64,000 nucleotides of DNA from Hippea alviniae EP5-r. GTDB taxonomy: Bacteria > Campylobacterota_A > Desulfurellia > Desulfurellales > Hippeaceae. Below the pieces are notes generated by a model. That model was not told where the DNA came from. It did not search any database and saw only the letters and a list, made by a program, of their open reading frames with translations. The position numbers and the translations under genes are program-made. The stretch covers positions 496,001 through 560,000 of the forward strand of contig NZ_ATUV01000001.1 in assembly GCF_000420385.1 (NCBI RefSeq), given 5' to 3'. Below are positions 1 through 6,487 of this stretch, one piece after another (the stretch's first letter is position 1; each line of letters begins with the position of its first letter).

Positions 1-363
1 TATTATCTCAAAATAAATCCCTAAATCTTTTAATCTTTCTGATAGATAGTTGAATGTGCTATAGATTGATACATCGCCTATTGTCGTATAACTTACCGTT
101 TTTCCTTCGTTTAGCAGCTTTTCTATCATGAGAGCTTGAGAGTCGTAAGCTCTTTTAAGTTCATCCTTGTCGTTTGTTGTTGGAAAAGAGAAAAATTGAA
201 TCTTATCTTTATCGACAAAGTCTTTTATCACATTAAAAGCCACGCTTCTTGAAGACTTCTTAGACTTTGGAACTATTACTATATCGCTCTTTCTGAGCTT
301 CTCTAAAGCTTCAAGTGTTAAAAATTCTGGCTTTCCTACTCCTACACCTATTACATAGAGCAT
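1..363 (-). CDS. cbiL: Precorrin-2 C20-methyltransferase (cobalt-factor II type), partial
   Basis: Transfers a methyl group from S-adenosylmethionine to C20 of (cobalt-)precorrin-2 in the cytoplasmic anaerobic cobalamin pathway. The first 121 codons are present and the frame is still open at the left edge. The N-terminus MLYVIGVGVGKPEFLTLEAL is the typical start of tetrapyrrole methylases, and the VPKSK stretch near residue 37 fits the CbiL/CobI branch. The ATG at 363 lies 53 bases inside the preceding SUMT gene and has an AAGG-type ribosome site 9 bases upstream. It is the last visible gene of the riboswitch-controlled cobalamin operon. The family is clear; the exact subfamily rests on the N-terminal half only. 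Confidence 0.85.
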   Translation of the reverse strand, partial: MLYVIGVGVGKPEFLTLEALEKLRKSDIVIVPKSKKSSRSVAFNVIKDFVDKDKIQFFSFPTTNDKDELKRAYDSQALMIEKLLNEGKTVSYTTIGDVSIYSTFNYLSERLKDLGIYFEII

Positions 364-1075
364 CAAAAACACCTTCCCTTCTTAGGATTTCTCCTATAAC
401 AATAATCGCAGGTGGCTTTATTAGGCTTATACACTCTTTGTTCTTCAGCTCAAAACAGATTATTTTTTCGTTTTCAAAACCCAAACTTTCACCCGCACAT
501 ACAGGTGTATTTTTGTCCATTCCGCATTCCAAAAGTTTTTCTGCTATCTTTTCAAAATTCAGCACACCCATATAGATAACTATCGTCATATTCAATCTCA
601 CAATAGCTTCAAAATCGTAATAGTTCTCTATATCTGTATCTGCACTGTGTCCTGTTATAAATATAACGCCTTTTGATATATTTCTTGCCGTTAGCGGAGT
701 TTTTAGAATTGAAGAGAATAGAGAAGCTGTTGTGATGCCGGGTATTATCTCTATTTCTGCATTGAGCCTTTCTGCTGTTTCTATCTCTTCTATAACTCTG
801 CTGAAAAAAGCCGTATCACCACCTTTCAATCTTCCAACTGTTAAACCTTTCCTTAGGCTATCTTCGATAAGCGAATTTATTAAAGACTGGTCTGTGTGAT
901 GAGCTTTAGCCCTTTTGCCAACATATATATTCTTTCCTTTTGAGAATGAGAGTATCTTTTTGTCTATAAGGTCATCATATAACACTATATCGCACACCTT
1001 TAAAGCTTCTATGGATTTTAGGCTGAGCAGTTCATAGTTTGATGGTGCAGATATTATAAAAAGCTTGCCCTTCAT
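311..1075 (-). CDS. cobA: Uroporphyrinogen-III C-methyltransferase (SUMT)
   Basis: Methylates uroporphyrinogen III twice with S-adenosylmethionine to give precorrin-2, the branch point to siroheme and cobalamin. Family motifs are visible: RLKGGD (near residue 83), IIPGITTAS (near 111), TPLTARN (near 126) and a late TGH. An upstream ATG at 1093 is in frame, but the ATG at 1075 forms the usual ATGA overlap with the stop of the preceding gene and has a GGAG upstream, so it is preferred (254 aa). The gene carries only the methylase domain; the dehydrogenase function is the separate gene at 6038. The 3' end overlaps the next gene by 53 bases. Confidence 0.9.
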   Translation of the reverse strand: MKGKLFIISAPSNYELLSLKSIEALKVCDIVLYDDLIDKKILSFSKGKNIYVGKRAKAHHTDQSLINSLIEDSLRKGLTVGRLKGGDTAFFSRVIEEIETAERLNAEIEIIPGITTASLFSSILKTPLTARNISKGVIFITGHSADTDIENYYDFEAIVRLNMTIVIYMGVLNFEKIAEKLLECGMDKNTPVCAGESLGFENEKIICFELKNKECISLIKPPAIIVIGEILRREGVFDALCNRCRSRKARIFNT

Positions 1076-1869
1076 TTTCTGTTTTTGCTCCATTCGTAAA
1101 ATAGGTTATTTAGATATACAACACTATCGAATGATACCGTATTGCTCCTTAAGAATTTTGACTCATCAACCTTCACTATAAGCATGCTTGTATCTTTAAA
1201 GATAGCTCTTTTGTTTGGCGGTGTTGGATTCTTATTCATAGGCCCAACTTCGTATATATAAATATCAGGCTTTTTTAGGAGAATGTTCTCTTGCAGGGTT
1301 CTCACAAACATTCTGTTTTTGTTTATTATGTTTATTCCACCTGCAGTCTGAATGATATCGTTTACTATGCATTTTTTGCCCGCAACAAGATACGGCGTTT
1401 GCATAATTTCAAATACAACCTTAGGTTTGTGTTTTATTGGTTTTAGTTGTTTTATCTTATCAAGGAGATTTTTTGTGAGTTCTTCAGCCTTCTTTCCCCT
1501 ATTAAACATTTTACCTATGAGTTTTATCTCTTTTATTATTCCTTTTAAGGTATGTGGGTTATATATCAAAATTTTTACGCCCTTTAATTTTGATGCGTCA
1601 AATTCAGTTTTTCTTCGAGCAACTATCAAGTCTGGCTTAAGGGAGATTAATATCTCTGTATTCACACTCAAGTGCGTGCCTACGATTTTAGCGTTTTTGA
1701 ATAATTTAACATTCTTGGTTTTCCCAACAACAACATTGTCAAGGTTCAACTTATGAAATATATCTGCTACATCTGGAGCAAGCAGAACAACCCTTTTGTA
1801 TGCAAAGGAGAGATTAAAAGAAAATAAAACGATTAGAGCAGCTAATACTGTTGATTTCGTAAGCTTCAT
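1072..1869 (-). CDS. Periplasmic substrate-binding protein of a B12/cobalamin-type ABC transporter (BtuF-like)
   Basis: Likely captures a corrinoid or metal chelate in the periplasm and delivers it to the adjacent permease. A signal peptide covers residues 1-23 (hydrophobic core LAALIVLFSFNL, cleavage after SFA). The mature part has the class III fold pattern of the BtuF/FecB family, including ILISLKPDLIVA near residue 75. The start at 1869 has a perfect AAGGAGG six bases upstream that lies inside the ATPase gene, so the 56-base overlap with that gene is real. The signal peptide is thus encoded in the frame opposite the ATPase C-terminus. Substrate is inferred from the riboswitch and neighbouring cobalamin genes; siderophore or haem cannot be excluded. 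Confidence 0.85.
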   Translation of the reverse strand: MKLTKSTVLAALIVLFSFNLSFAYKRVVLLAPDVADIFHKLNLDNVVVGKTKNVKLFKNAKIVGTHLSVNTEILISLKPDLIVARRKTEFDASKLKGVKILIYNPHTLKGIIKEIKLIGKMFNRGKKAEELTKNLLDKIKQLKPIKHKPKVVFEIMQTPYLVAGKKCIVNDIIQTAGGINIINKNRMFVRTLQENILLKKPDIYIYEVGPMNKNPTPPNKRAIFKDTSMLIVKVDESKFLRSNTVSFDSVVYLNNLFYEWSKNRK

Positions 1870-2536
1870 CTATTACCTCCTTAGTTATTTTGTTTGGGCT
1901 ATCATCAAATATTATCCTGCCGTCTTTTAAAATTATTACTCTATCAAAATAAGCTAAAGCTAAATTAATATCGTGAACAGAAGATATTATAGTTTTTCTT
2001 AGGCTCTTTAAGTACTCTGCCACGATTTTTGAGTATTTTATATCCACAGATGATAACGGTTCGTCAAAAACCATAACCTTTGAATCTTGATTAATGGTTT
2101 TTGCTATCAGAATAAGTCTCTTTTGTCCACCAGAGAGAGCTTTAAACTGCTTTCTTGCCAAGTGTTTCATCTTAAGTTTTTCCAATATCTCTTCTGTGTT
2201 CTTTAAATCTTCTTCGTCAAAGAGACCATTTTTTATGTGATACCTGCCGAGTAAAACAACCTTAAAGGCAGTACTGTTCAAAGAAAAATCACTGAATTGT
2301 GGCAAAAAAGAGAGAATGGATGCTTTATCTATCGGTTTAAGGTTTGATATATCTTTTGAAAATACCCTTATGTTTGACTCTATAAATCCTGCTATTGCAA
2401 GCAATAGTGTCGTTTTTCCACTGCCGTTTTCTCCAAGAATTGCTACTTTTTGCCCTTCTTCTATGGTTAGTTTCTTTATCTTTAAACTAAAGCTCTCCCT
2501 TTCTATTGAAAGATTCTCTATCTCAACCGCTTTCAT
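1814..2536 (-). CDS. ABC transporter ATP-binding protein (BtuD/FecE-like)
   Basis: Cytoplasmic ATPase powering the neighbouring FecCD-type permease. Walker A GENGSGKTT at residues 35-43, ABC signature LSGGQ at 134-138, Walker B VMVFDEP at 154-160 and the switch histidine at 188 (SVHDI) are all present, so it should be active. Length (240 aa) is normal for the family. It overlaps the permease by 14 bases and the binding protein by 56 bases, consistent with translational coupling within the operon. Confidence 0.92.
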   Translation of the reverse strand: MKAVEIENLSIERESFSLKIKKLTIEEGQKVAILGENGSGKTTLLLAIAGFIESNIRVFSKDISNLKPIDKASILSFLPQFSDFSLNSTAFKVVLLGRYHIKNGLFDEEDLKNTEEILEKLKMKHLARKQFKALSGGQKRLILIAKTINQDSKVMVFDEPLSSVDIKYSKIVAEYLKSLRKTIISSVHDINLALAYFDRVIILKDGRIIFDDSPNKITKEVIDEAYEINSISCSNRFIFF

Positions 2537-3473
2537 TCCAGTTGTCTTTTCTTTTGAGCATTAGATAAAAGAAAAATAGCCCGCCCACGATTGAAGTTAA
2601 GATACCAACAGGCAGCTCTTCTGTCTTTATAATTGTTCTTGCCAATGTTTCGCTTAAAAGCATAACCAAAGCTCCCAGAATCGTTGATAAAATAATCAAC
2701 TCTTTGGATTCAAAACCGCCAATAAACCTTGAAATGTGTGGAACTATAAGCCCAACAAACGGTATAATTCCAGAAAAACTAACGGCTATGCCAACCAAAA
2801 ACGCAGAGATAAAATAGTTTATACTCCTAAAAGCTTTTACATTTATACCCATTGAGCTTGTTGTAAAGAAGTCAAAACCCATTATGTCTAATTTTATTGA
2901 GTTCTTAACAAAAAAGATAAAGCTAAAAATCAAAGCAACAAAGAGAATAGTAGACTTGATATAATTTGGATTAAAAAATCCGCCCATAAGCCAAAACACA
3001 ATACTGCCAACACTCTCTTCGTAATAGTATTTCAGAAAACCTATGATTGCCGTTGCAACGATATTTACCACTATTCCTGCGAGTATCAATGTTGTATGTT
3101 TTAAAGAGTCTTTTGACAGAAGAATTGCAAAGCTTATACCAAGCATACCGAACACACTTGCGAATACAGGAACAAAAAAATACGGCAAGCCAATACAAAT
3201 AACCAAAACTCCGCCTAATGCAGCCGTTGAAGCCGCTCCAGTGGTAAACCCATCTGCAAGCGGATTCTTTAGTATTATTTGAAGTATTGCGCCGGACAAT
3301 CCAAGTATTGAACCAATGAAGGCTGCCTCTAAGGATAAAGGCAGCCTGTAATTAAAAATTATGGTTTTTTCTATCTCGCTCATCTGAAAAATGTTTATGT
3401 TTACAGAACCCGTTGTGATACTAATCAAAAATGCTATCAGTGTTGCGAAAAATAGAAAAAGATAAATTTTCAT
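2523..3473 (-). CDS. FecCD-family ABC transporter permease (BtuC-like)
   Basis: Inner-membrane permease of the iron-chelate/B12 import family, expected to work as a dimer with two ATPase subunits and the periplasmic binding protein encoded next. The 316-residue protein is strongly hydrophobic with about 8-10 membrane segments and the family stretches YRLPLSLEAAFIGSILGLSG and GIIPFVGLIVPHISRFIGG. The start overlaps the cbiK stop by 4 bases. Located between an exported cobaltochelatase and the ATPase under a cobalamin riboswitch, it most likely imports a corrinoid, though cobalt chelate or haem remain possible. Confidence 0.9.
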   Translation of the reverse strand: MKIYLFLFFATLIAFLISITTGSVNINIFQMSEIEKTIIFNYRLPLSLEAAFIGSILGLSGAILQIILKNPLADGFTTGAASTAALGGVLVICIGLPYFFVPVFASVFGMLGISFAILLSKDSLKHTTLILAGIVVNIVATAIIGFLKYYYEESVGSIVFWLMGGFFNPNYIKSTILFVALIFSFIFFVKNSIKLDIMGFDFFTTSSMGINVKAFRSINYFISAFLVGIAVSFSGIIPFVGLIVPHISRFIGGFESKELIILSTILGALVMLLSETLARTIIKTEELPVGILTSIVGGLFFFYLMLKRKDNWNESG

Positions 3474-4438
3474 CTTAGTTTTATGCCGTTATCTCTTGCA
3501 ACATCCTTTATATGTTGTATGTATATATTTACCCATTCTGGATTCTCTCCAAGTCCATGAATGGAGCAAACAACATTTATCCCCTCCTTTTTAAATGCAC
3601 TCTTCCAAGAATCTTCGTCTCCACACATGTCGTTGTTTGCATGGTCGCCAGCAACAACCATCAAAGGTTTGAGTAAAACTTTCTTTATACCCGCTCTTTT
3701 TACTTCACTCAAAACATCTTCTAAAGAAGGGAATCCTTCAACTGTTCCAACAAATATTTTATCGGTGTGATACATCTTTCTTAGCTCTTTCTGAAGCTCA
3801 GCATATACGCCTGTTGAGTAATGCTCGTTTCCATGTCCCATATAAACCAAAGCAGCCTTATTCTTTTTTGCAAGCTCAATATCGTTTTTTAGGGCTTTTG
3901 CTGCTATCTCTATATCTTTGTGATAATCGTATTTCCAAACATTTCTTCCTAAGGCTGGTCTTCCGATAACGAGCTTTTTGAATGGCATATACTTCTTTTT
4001 CATTGTTTTTATAGAGTTTAAACCGTTTACATAAGATAGAAGGTCTGTAAACTCTTCGCCATCATAAATGTGGGTTGGCTGAACAATAATCGTTTTGTAT
4101 CCTTCGTCCTGCAAGTCGGCTATTGTTGCAAGTGGTCCTTTAACATAGAGAAAATCTTTTAGTTTTGAGTTGTTCTCAAACTTCTTGTTGTGCTGTCTTT
4201 TGTGCCAAATGTTTCTTATAATGTTGGAAGTGAATGTAAAAACAACTTTTTCGTGCGGAAATGCTTTCTGCACGGCTTCTTTGATGTTTTCAATATCAAC
4301 AAACCCTGTTGAATAAGTCGTTCCGAAGTCTGCAAGAACTATAGCCACCTTGCCCTTATGTTGGGCTTTTCCGAAAGATTGAAGATGAACACCAAAGGTC
4401 AAAACGAAAACGATGAGAAAGCTTAAGAAAACTCTCAT
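3470..4438 (-). CDS. cbiK: Sirohydrochlorin cobaltochelatase, exported form (CbiK)
   Basis: CbiK inserts Co2+ (or Fe2+) into sirohydrochlorin in the early-insertion (anaerobic) cobalamin pathway. Core motifs are visible: VLADFGTTY (35-42), QPTHIYDGEEF (120-130, His123 likely catalytic), GHGNEH (201-206) and AGDHANND (263-270, His266 likely the second catalytic histidine). Unlike the cytoplasmic enzyme, residues 1-23 form a signal peptide (FLSFLIVFVLTFGVHLQSFG), so the protein should be periplasmic like the CbiK-P described in Desulfovibrio. Its position between cobB and a BtuCDF-like importer suggests a role linked to uptake of metal or tetrapyrrole rather than only to synthesis. Confidence 0.9.
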   Translation of the reverse strand: MRVFLSFLIVFVLTFGVHLQSFGKAQHKGKVAIVLADFGTTYSTGFVDIENIKEAVQKAFPHEKVVFTFTSNIIRNIWHKRQHNKKFENNSKLKDFLYVKGPLATIADLQDEGYKTIIVQPTHIYDGEEFTDLLSYVNGLNSIKTMKKKYMPFKKLVIGRPALGRNVWKYDYHKDIEIAAKALKNDIELAKKNKAALVYMGHGNEHYSTGVYAELQKELRKMYHTDKIFVGTVEGFPSLEDVLSEVKRAGIKKVLLKPLMVVAGDHANNDMCGDEDSWKSAFKKEGINVVCSIHGLGENPEWVNIYIQHIKDVARDNGIKLR

Positions 4439-5754
4439 AAAACACCTCCACAGAGATTTTTTAAAAACTTTTTAGAGAATAGAAAGTGTACATAACTTGC
4501 TATGGCTCTATTTTTCATAAGTCCATCTTTATAAACTGTTCCATCGGTCAATTTTTTAAGCTCAAAGCTGAACTGTTCATCTATCTGGGTATAGTATGAG
4601 TAATGAAACTCATGCCCAAATACAGGCCCTTCTAAAAATGTCTTTGTTAAGTCTTTTACCTTAACATAACCAAGAGCTTTTCTTCTCTTGCTCATTTTTA
4701 TTTTTACATTGAAAACTTTAGCCATTTTGTAAAATTCATCGTCTATGTATATACCTTCTGATAAAAGCATCATTCCGCCACATTCGGCTATCAGTGGCTT
4801 ATCTGAGTTTATATGTTCTGCTATACTTTTAATGGTTTTTACACTCTTAGATAGCCGTTCTGCGTATAACTCTGGATATCCGCCGCCTAAATACACAAAG
4901 TCGGCGTTGTCCACCGTTTCGTTTTTAAGCGGCGAGAAAAATTTTAAATTATATCCCATTTTCTCAAGTTCTCTTAAATTGTTTTGATAGTAAAAGTTGA
5001 AGGCTTTATCGTAAGCTATGAGTGCTGTTTTGCTTTTTATGGTTGTGGCATGCTTAATTTCATATTCAAACTCAATCTCAGAGAGCCTTATTATTTCATC
5101 TATATTTGCATATTTGCCTATGTGTTCTGCGATTTTTTCATACTCTTCTTTCTCTGTCTCTTCTGCAACCTTAAGTCCAAGATGCCTTGAGCGTAATGTC
5201 AACTCTCTATTCTTTGGGATTATTCCTAAAATTTTCAGAGACGAGTGGTTTCTTATAGCATCCCTTACCAATTTTTCGTGTATCGAGCTTCCTATGTTGT
5301 TTATAATGACGCCATTTATTTTTATTTCTCTTGCTAACTCTTCAAAACCTTTTACTGAAGCCACAATAGATGCAGAACATTTAGAAGCATCAATTACTAT
5401 AACAACTGGCAGATTCAATATCTTTGCAATGTCGTATGTGCTTGCTTTGAATGTGTATGACTCTATTCCGTCAAATAGTCCCATAACGCCTTCTACAATG
5501 CCTATATCCGCTTGTATGAGATTCTCAAAAAAGGTGTCTTTAAGCTCTGCTCTGCTTAGCATTATGCTGTCAAGGTTATAGGCAAAAGAACCAGATGCAC
5601 AAGTCAAATGGGCAGTGTCTATATAGTCAGGGCCGCACTTAAATGGCGCTATAGAATAACCCTTTTCTTTAAGAGTGTGAAGCAATCCAACTGTTATAGT
5701 TGTTTTACCAGAACCGCTTCTGTCTGCGGCTATGATGAAGGCTGGCTTTCTCAT
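4435..5754 (-). CDS. cobB: Cobyrinate a,c-diamide synthase
   Basis: ATP- and glutamine-dependent amidation of the a and c carboxylates of cobyrinic acid (CbiA/CobB). The N-terminal dethiobiotin-synthetase-like domain has SGSGKTT at 13-19 and FKCGPDYID near 38-46. The C-terminal glutamine amidotransferase domain has the nucleophile in AECGG (Cys325) and the partner histidine in SYVHF (His423). Length of 439 aa is normal. It is the first full gene behind the cobalamin riboswitch and its ATG overlaps the stop of a 14-codon leader frame (ATGA). A modest AGGG lies five bases before the start. Confidence 0.93.
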   Translation of the reverse strand: MRKPAFIIAADRSGSGKTTITVGLLHTLKEKGYSIAPFKCGPDYIDTAHLTCASGSFAYNLDSIMLSRAELKDTFFENLIQADIGIVEGVMGLFDGIESYTFKASTYDIAKILNLPVVIVIDASKCSASIVASVKGFEELAREIKINGVIINNIGSSIHEKLVRDAIRNHSSLKILGIIPKNRELTLRSRHLGLKVAEETEKEEYEKIAEHIGKYANIDEIIRLSEIEFEYEIKHATTIKSKTALIAYDKAFNFYYQNNLRELEKMGYNLKFFSPLKNETVDNADFVYLGGGYPELYAERLSKSVKTIKSIAEHINSDKPLIAECGGMMLLSEGIYIDDEFYKMAKVFNVKIKMSKRRKALGYVKVKDLTKTFLEGPVFGHEFHYSYYTQIDEQFSFELKKLTDGTVYKDGLMKNRAIASYVHFLFSKKFLKNLCGGVL

Positions 5755-5795
5755 GCAGCCCTAATCGGTGGGTTGAAAAAGAAAAAAGAGCACAT
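5751..5795 (-). CDS. Possible 14-residue leader peptide between riboswitch and cobB
   Basis: An ATG at 5795 preceded by GGGAGG (5800-5805) opens a 14-codon frame (MCSFFFFNPPIRAA) whose TGA overlaps the cobB ATG. The ribosome site is much stronger than that of cobB and lies in the 3' arm of the downstream hairpin. Translation of this frame would carry ribosomes straight onto cobB. Seen in sequence: strong SD, start, stop overlap. Not shown: that it is translated. The spacing (4 bases) is short. Confidence 0.4.
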   Translation of the reverse strand: MCSFFFFNPPIRAA

Positions 5796-5830
5796 AGAAC
5801 CTCCCAATACCCGGGGAATTCTAAGGCTCT
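5787..5830 (-). terminator. Hairpin expression platform of the cobalamin riboswitch
   Basis: Reading the minus strand, AGAGC (5826-5830) pairs with GCTCT (5787-5791), TAGAA (5819-5823) pairs with TTCTA (5795-5799), and a CCC of CCCCGG pairs with the GGG of GGGAGG (5800-5805). Two T-runs follow (5774-5786 region, TTTTTT C TTTTT). The structure therefore both buries the SD and start of the leader frame and looks like an intrinsic terminator. Its outer AGAGC is also part of the riboswitch P1 3' strand, so the two outer stems compete. Whether control is transcriptional or translational cannot be decided from sequence. Confidence 0.65.
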
Positions 5831-5973
5831 ATAGGTCTTCTGGCTTACGGGCAAAAACCTACTCCTCCCGCCTTCCCATCGGCAATAGCCGACAGTGGCT
5901 TTCTGGGAGTTTCGTTCCCGAATACAGCTGCGGGTACAGCGTGGGATTCTCACCCAACTTCCCTGATAGAGCC
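5825..5973 (-). promoter_or_regulatory. Cobalamin (adenosylcobalamin-type) riboswitch
   Basis: On the minus strand the conserved core elements appear in order: GGGAAG..GGTGAGAATCCC, CGCTGTACCCGCAGCTGTA, GAAAGCCACTG, GATGGGAAGGCG and AAGCCAGAAGACCT (the B12 box). The closing P1 stem is GGCTCTAT (5966-5973) with ATAGAGCC (5825-5832), eight perfect pairs. It lies directly upstream of cobB and should repress the cobB-cbiK-btuCDF-cobA-cbiL operon when cobalamin is plentiful, as is known for this class. Confidence 0.95.
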
Positions 5974-5980
5974 CAATTTA

Positions 5981-6009
5981 ACTTTAGCAAATAATTTTTA
6001 ACTTTTCAA
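5981..6009 (-). promoter_or_regulatory. Probable sigma-70 promoter of the cobalamin operon
   Basis: On the minus strand TTGAAA (6004-6009) and TAAAGT (5981-5986) are spaced by 17 bases. The predicted transcript start falls a few bases before the riboswitch P1 stem, which is where it should be. Sequence match only. Confidence 0.55.
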
Positions 6010-6037: not shown

Positions 6038-6487
6038 ATGTGCTATCCCTTATTTTTCAAGTTTAGTGGCAGAAATATTTTAGTCTTTGGAGCAGGTAAA
6101 GTTGCTTTAAGAAAGGTAAAATCCATTTTGTCTTTAACAAAACCCAACATGACAATTATCTCTTTAGACTTTGAAGATGGGTTTTACAGTCTGCCTGTTA
6201 AATTGGTAAAAAAGAAAGCTTCAATCTCAGATATAACAGCTGATTACGACTTTATCTTTATCTGCACAAACGATAGAAAACTAAACCACACTCTATTTTT
6301 AAAAGCAAAAGAGCTCTCTATTCCCGTTAATGTTGCAGATAACCAAAATGAGTGCGACTTTTTTACCTCGGCTACGATAAAGTTTGGAGATATTGTAATA
6401 GCTATCTCGACGCAGGGCAAAAACCCATCAAAAAGCAAAGAATTCAAAGAAAAGCTTCTAAAGGCTCTAAAAAGTATTGATTTTTAA
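6038..6487 (+). CDS. sirC: Precorrin-2 dehydrogenase (SirC / CysG N-terminal domain)
   Basis: NAD-dependent oxidation of precorrin-2 to sirohydrochlorin, the substrate for the CbiK chelatase and for siroheme. The Rossmann motif FGAGKVALRK lies at residues 17-26, and the VNVADNQNECDF segment carries the likely catalytic Asp101. At 149 aa it is a stand-alone dehydrogenase domain, shorter than Met8p or CysG, so ferrochelation must come from another protein. It is divergent from the riboswitch-controlled operon and may escape B12 control, which makes sense because siroheme needs it too. No ribosome site is visible before the ATG; a TATAAA at 6024-6029 could give an almost leaderless mRNA. Confidence 0.9.
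   Translation: MCYPLFFKFSGRNILVFGAGKVALRKVKSILSLTKPNMTIISLDFEDGFYSLPVKLVKKKASISDITADYDFIFICTNDRKLNHTLFLKAKELSIPVNVADNQNECDFFTSATIKFGDIVIAISTQGKNPSKSKEFKEKLLKALKSIDF

Follow-up and report, generated by a model that had tools for sequence, protein, structure and literature searches.

The cobB leader of Hippea alviniae EP5-r carries a class-I-type cobalamin riboswitch that probably (probability about 0.7) serves as a translational OFF switch, acting on a short leader open reading frame (uORF) to which cobB would be coupled. The window, i.e., the whole stretch of DNA analyzed, comprises 64,000 nucleotides, and the relevant features are listed in Table 1.

Table 1. Features of the cobB leader and operon (positions in the window) and the second cobalamin riboswitch of the H. 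alviniae genome (G000; position on its contig).
Feature	Position	Strand	Remarks
Cobalamin riboswitch aptamer	5814..5995	-	RF00174; class-I-type P6 extension present
P1 5′ strand GGGCUCUAU	5966..5974	-	9 bp with 5832-5824; duplex energy -12.7 kcal/mol
L5 kissing-loop half, UACCC in GCUGUACCCGC	5932..5936	-	5-nt complement of L13, read directly
P1 3′ strand AUAGAGCCU	5824..5832	-	5830-5825 common to outer hairpin stem
P13 regulatory hairpin (expression platform)	5795..5823	-	-10.5 kcal/mol at 37°C, -6.1 at 55°C
L13 kissing-loop half, GGGUA	5808..5812	-	In 7-nt P13 loop GGGUAUU
Leader Shine-Dalgarno sequence (SD) GGGAGG	5800..5805	-	P13 3′ arm; anti-SD pairing -10.9 kcal/mol; ATG 4 nt on
Leader ORF (uORF) MCSFFFFNPPIRAA	5751..5795	-	14 codons; ATG 5795-5793; TGA overlaps cobB ATG (ATGA)
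GCUCU, outer-stem 3′ strand	5787..5791	-	Pairs with 5830-5826 AGAGC; H. alviniae genome only
T6-C-T5 run	5776..5787	-	3′ of hairpin; read as Phe codons within uORF; doubtful as terminator
cobB, cobyrinic acid a,c-diamide synthase	4435..5754	-	NF002204, 442.7 bits (cut-off 254); ATG 5754-5752
Rest of operon: cbiK-like, btuC-like permease, ABC ATPase, btuF-like, cobA (SUMT)	311..4438	-	Successive genes overlap
Second cobalamin riboswitch, before nrdD	G000:C1:170110-169923 (L135, G000:C1:168500-171500)	-	nrdD: NF006126, 709 bits

The covariance model RF00174 matched positions 5995-5814 of the reverse strand over 189 of 189 model positions (84.9 bits, E 1.8e-19, gathering score 31.5). The identity of the aptamer is certain, and the RNA is expected to bind cobalamin. 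Because UACCC in L5 exactly complements GGGUA in the loop of the hairpin 3′ of the aptamer, this hairpin was assigned as P13, the usual regulatory hairpin; the role of the kissing loop in cobalamin riboswitches has been described (PMC9600662). An earlier note on this DNA had located the riboswitch core and the hairpin 5787-5830 correctly, leaving the P13 and L5-L13 identity unnamed. Its other readings were confirmed as well, namely GGGAGG in the 3′ arm, the ATG of a 14-codon frame with ATGA overlap to cobB, the T-run after the hairpin (T6-C-T5 at 5787-5776) and an outer pairing that touches the P1 3′ strand (AGAGC at 5830-5826). The long hairpin 5830-5787, which includes this outer pairing, has two small interruptions and a folding energy of -18.5 kcal/mol at 37°C and -11.0 kcal/mol at 55°C, the latter temperature being chosen since the host, Hippea, is a moderate thermophile. 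The stability of the leader stretch overall was not exceptional (z -0.89).

The uORF encodes the peptide M C S F F F F N P P I R A A, followed by the stop codon. In H. alviniae the leader SD lies 45 nt upstream of the cobB start and is thus too far away to serve cobB directly, and an SD of cobB itself is unclear (anti-SD pairing -3.0 kcal/mol). As the five downstream genes overlap in turn, ribosome entry at the uORF may feed the whole chain and set its translation once. Upstream, a divergent gene resembling precorrin-2 dehydrogenase and the N-terminal part of CysG (window 6038-6487, forward strand; TIGR01470, 73 bits) points away from the riboswitch.

A genome search yielded riboswitch-cobB pairs in five further genomes of the same family (G001, G004, G008, G010, G013), which were compared with that of H. 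alviniae (G000). The CobB proteins of these relatives share 50-56% identity with that of H. alviniae and 51-73% with each other. The 20-nt P13 core ATTCCCCGGGNATTGGGAGG is kept in all six with variation in a single loop column, and L13 reads GGGNAUU throughout. Every P13 holds a leader SD with an anti-SD pairing energy of -10.2 to -10.9 kcal/mol and an AUG 4-9 nt later, and the SD at the cobB start is weak in each case (-1.1 to -3.0 kcal/mol). The earlier note had proposed that the switch sequesters the SD of a leader frame to which cobB is coupled, and had named lack of conservation of this frame in relatives as a finding that would refute it. The frame reaches the cobB start in six of six genomes, and the SD borne by P13 together with the leader ORF, likewise in six of six, supports the proposal. 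The junctions are tight in four genomes, with ATGA (G000), GTGA (G004, G008) or abutting TAGATG (G001), and in the other two the uORF stops 24 nt (G013) or 34 nt (G010) inside cobB. These two late stops count against coupling, because late uORF stops lowered coupling in Mycobacterium tuberculosis (PMC11260477). Taken alone, P13 of the relatives is weak (-3.0 to -4.2 kcal/mol at 55°C), which fits a switch that depends on the kissing loop.

The peptides encoded by the cobB uORFs are unrelated (MCSFFFFNPPIRAA, MFFNFSGIS, MCIELKPSPLVL, MFIDIDSSSLAL and longer ones). Selection thus seems to preserve the ribosome entry site and the extension of the frame to cobB rather than the peptide. A leader that senses through its peptide was considered and rejected, as these peptides have little in common beyond the start. 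A CobB scan of the genome contigs returned distant homologues only (best 46% identity). Among 20 distant CobB loci checked with Rfam, a riboswitch was present at one alone, on the opposite strand, and a consensus-motif riboswitch search at all 80 distant CobB loci found none.

Another explanation would be a plain P13 riboswitch in which a leader frame is present by chance and ribosomes start on cobB independently. With the frame taken as given, about half or more of the shuffles per genome (0.72 in G000) also stayed open as far as the cobB start, the peptide is unconserved, and weak SDs are frequent in the window (13 of 56 genes). Within the window, a weak SD was not linked to the presence of an ORF shortly upstream (Fisher P 0.75). 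Statistical support from the junctions is modest: with the frames given, P was 0.025 for four tight junctions of six and 0.046 for all six uORFs reaching the cobB start, and the junction test gave 0.058 when G000 was omitted and G004 and G008 were merged. The case is carried by conservation, that is, by a strong P13 SD in six of six genomes that has no other start to serve, together with an SD-poor cobB. This conserved SD, the AUG that follows it and the SD-less cobB in all six genomes would be left unaccounted for by a chance frame, as would the recurrence of the P13-SD-uORF layout at the nrdD and TonB-receptor riboswitches of the same group, and we therefore consider this explanation unlikely.

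In the translational OFF switch that we favor, binding of B12 would shut P1, and the L5-L13 kissing loop would keep P13 closed. Closed P13 would conceal the leader SD and AUG, so that the uORF would stay untranslated and re-initiation at the SD-less cobB would fail. Without B12, P13 would be only marginally stable, the more so at the temperature of a thermophile, and ribosomes could load at the leader SD, read 14 codons, halt at UGA and re-initiate at the overlapping AUG of cobB. The peptide itself would not be the signal. By analogy with M. tuberculosis, where expression of PPE2 dropped severely once the SD or start of the uORF was removed (PMC11260477), the uORF might be needed for cobB expression. 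Translation of the uORF might instead shield the mRNA, in which case B12 would cut mRNA rather than re-initiation, via Rho-dependent or decay-based polarity. Untranslated leaders may reveal Rho sites, as suggested for the M. tuberculosis metE switch (PMC11260477), but polarity of this kind leaves the stop/start overlap and the weak cobB SD unexplained, and the ppe2 stop-codon mutants argued against Rho (PMC11260477). We regard it as very unlikely.

The earlier note had combined SD sequestration with transcription termination. Of this combination the SD part stood, whereas the putative terminator is found in G000 only and is exclusive with P1. Under such dual control, the long hairpin 5830-5787 with its T-run would also be a B12-controlled intrinsic terminator. 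The outer stem adds 8 kcal/mol to the hairpin (from -10.5 to -18.5) and adjoins T6-C-T5, the energy of the long hairpin was attained by 1.25% of tail shuffles, and most of the Cbl riboswitches that functioned in a B. subtilis reporter study had predicted terminators (PMC9600662). However, outer stem and T-run occur in G000 alone and are absent in the five relatives, and a consensus terminator scan returned the short core stem alone, at chance level. The outer stem takes 5830-5825 from the P1 3′ strand and requires P1 to be open, so that the full terminator belongs to the ligand-free state, the wrong direction for an OFF switch of B12 synthesis and uptake; if P1 is closed, the T-run begins several nucleotides past the stem. 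A conserved terminator compatible with the bound aptamer, as in the intrinsic-terminator class, was thus not found. Dual control appears quite unlikely to us, and we count the long hairpin with its T-run as an oddity of G000.

With neither ligand nor kissing loop in the calculation, the long hairpin was the preferred fold (outer stem 0.98 at 55°C). Imposing P1 raised the energy by about 5 kcal/mol at 55°C, an amount that ligand binding and the kissing loop could supply. In the ligand-free in silico fold of G000 the leader SD was paired 0.8; as the long hairpin conceals the SD, an unbound state with a free SD is not predicted in G000. This is the main weak point of the OFF-switch model.

The nrdD leader of H. 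alviniae has a related layout. The SD in its P13 is followed by an 8-codon uORF (MRKESPPD and stop), and nrdD has a strong SD of its own with the start about 50 nt further on. This nrdD SD was predicted to be paired 0.99 with CCCC right after the uORF stop (shuffles 0.71, 0.5% as high), and the value dropped to 0.38 with a ribosome modelled over the stop. According to this modelling the leader is likely a riboswitch-uORF-hairpin relay. In other genomes, nrdD leaders likewise carry a uORF (7-11 codons) at this place. Masking of the nrdD SD above the level of shuffles was clear in G000, G001 and G008, weaker in G002, G003, G005 and G007, and not seen in G004, G010, G011, G013, G014, G015 and G022. 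G001 has CCUCC/GGAGG instead of CCCC/GGGG, one compensatory change that was read directly. In the nrdD leader of G024 (L166, G024:C69), uORF and nrdD are separated by an insertion of about 160 bp that is bounded by terminal inverted repeats (ATGAGATTATTGCACAATAA...TTATTGTGCAATAGTCTCAT) and may be a small mobile element.

In two leaders of TonB receptors with a Plug domain (L151, G014:C21; L153, G011:C45), a 12-codon uORF ends with AATACCTCT. This motif in the last uORF codons complements the SD of the receptor gene, which was predicted to be paired 0.97-0.98 (G011, G014); in G011 a ribosome modelled at the uORF stop reduced this merely to 0.82. The TonB-receptor riboswitches L161-L163 of a sister family (G016-G018) have a P13 with GCAGCGGGAGUUCUGC, no leader AUG and the gene SD about 30 nt on, and thus represent a different platform. 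In the distant genome G042 (L195, G042:C445), a riboswitch is followed by an SD and a 25-codon uORF with ATGA overlap to a histidine-phosphatase gene (start 1741), perhaps cobC. Among 18 other distant sites inspected, one clear P13 uORF was seen (G039), so the design is not a general one. A motif survey of the phylum to which G029 belongs recognized eight riboswitch sites, one of them with a 47-codon frame but without a convincing relay. Tentatively, the B12 riboswitches of the group may commonly gate a short uORF rather than the gene, with two relays, the overlap at cobB and, at nrdD and TonB-receptor genes, a hairpin at the uORF end that would hide the gene SD until it is opened by a ribosome on the uORF. 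The design would seem to have arisen separately elsewhere (ppe2; G042).

The layout had been called unusual in the earlier note, which holds, with the qualification that M. tuberculosis ppe2 provides an experimental precedent (PMC11260477). This is the one demonstration, in the literature searched, of a riboswitch gating a uORF that a gene requires; other uORF-gating riboswitches were not found in this search, whose coverage was incomplete, nor was a paper treating Hippea and riboswitches together. At cobB, six diverged species keep the same layout in front of an ordinary B12 operon. This conservation suggests a regular expression platform overlooked by gene-centred annotation, and the six species offer a simple test of whether coupling or peptide sequence is the target of selection.

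In cobalamin riboswitches of the E. coli btuB type, P13 hides the SD of the regulated gene itself. Aptamer, P13 and L5-L13 are as in the cobB leader, where the hidden SD is that of the leader ORF instead. In translational attenuators of the erm type, a hairpin that holds a downstream SD is opened by ribosomes translating a leader ORF, and the trigger is ribosome stalling. The nrdD and TonB-receptor leaders resemble them in that the end region of the uORF pairs with the gene SD, but entry into the uORF would be set by the riboswitch and would not depend on stalling. The intrinsic-terminator Cbl riboswitches (many of them studied in PMC9600662) share aptamer and L5-L13 with the cobB switch, and G000 also has a hairpin with a T-run; unlike theirs, this terminator is unconserved and exclusive with P1. 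The closest counterpart is ppe2 of M. tuberculosis, with a B12 switch that buries the uPPE2 SD in an L13-bearing hairpin (Kipkorir et al., 2024, PMC11260477). There, an AUGA overlap joins uPPE2 to ppe2, which has no SD, and termination-reinitiation was demonstrated with reporters (PMC11260477). The cobB leader shares the uORF SD in the L13 hairpin (six of six genomes), the AUGA overlap, the SD-less gene, the operon with cobalamin genes and, as we infer, the OFF direction; translation of the uORF was shown for ppe2 and is probable for cobB. The authors speculated that their layout arose via insertion of ppe2 into a cobalamin locus (PMC11260477). In contrast to the ppe2 aptamer, which is Class IIb-like with a truncated P6 and no P8-P12, the cobB switch has a P6 extension, a uORF of 9-25 codons and cobB as its direct target.
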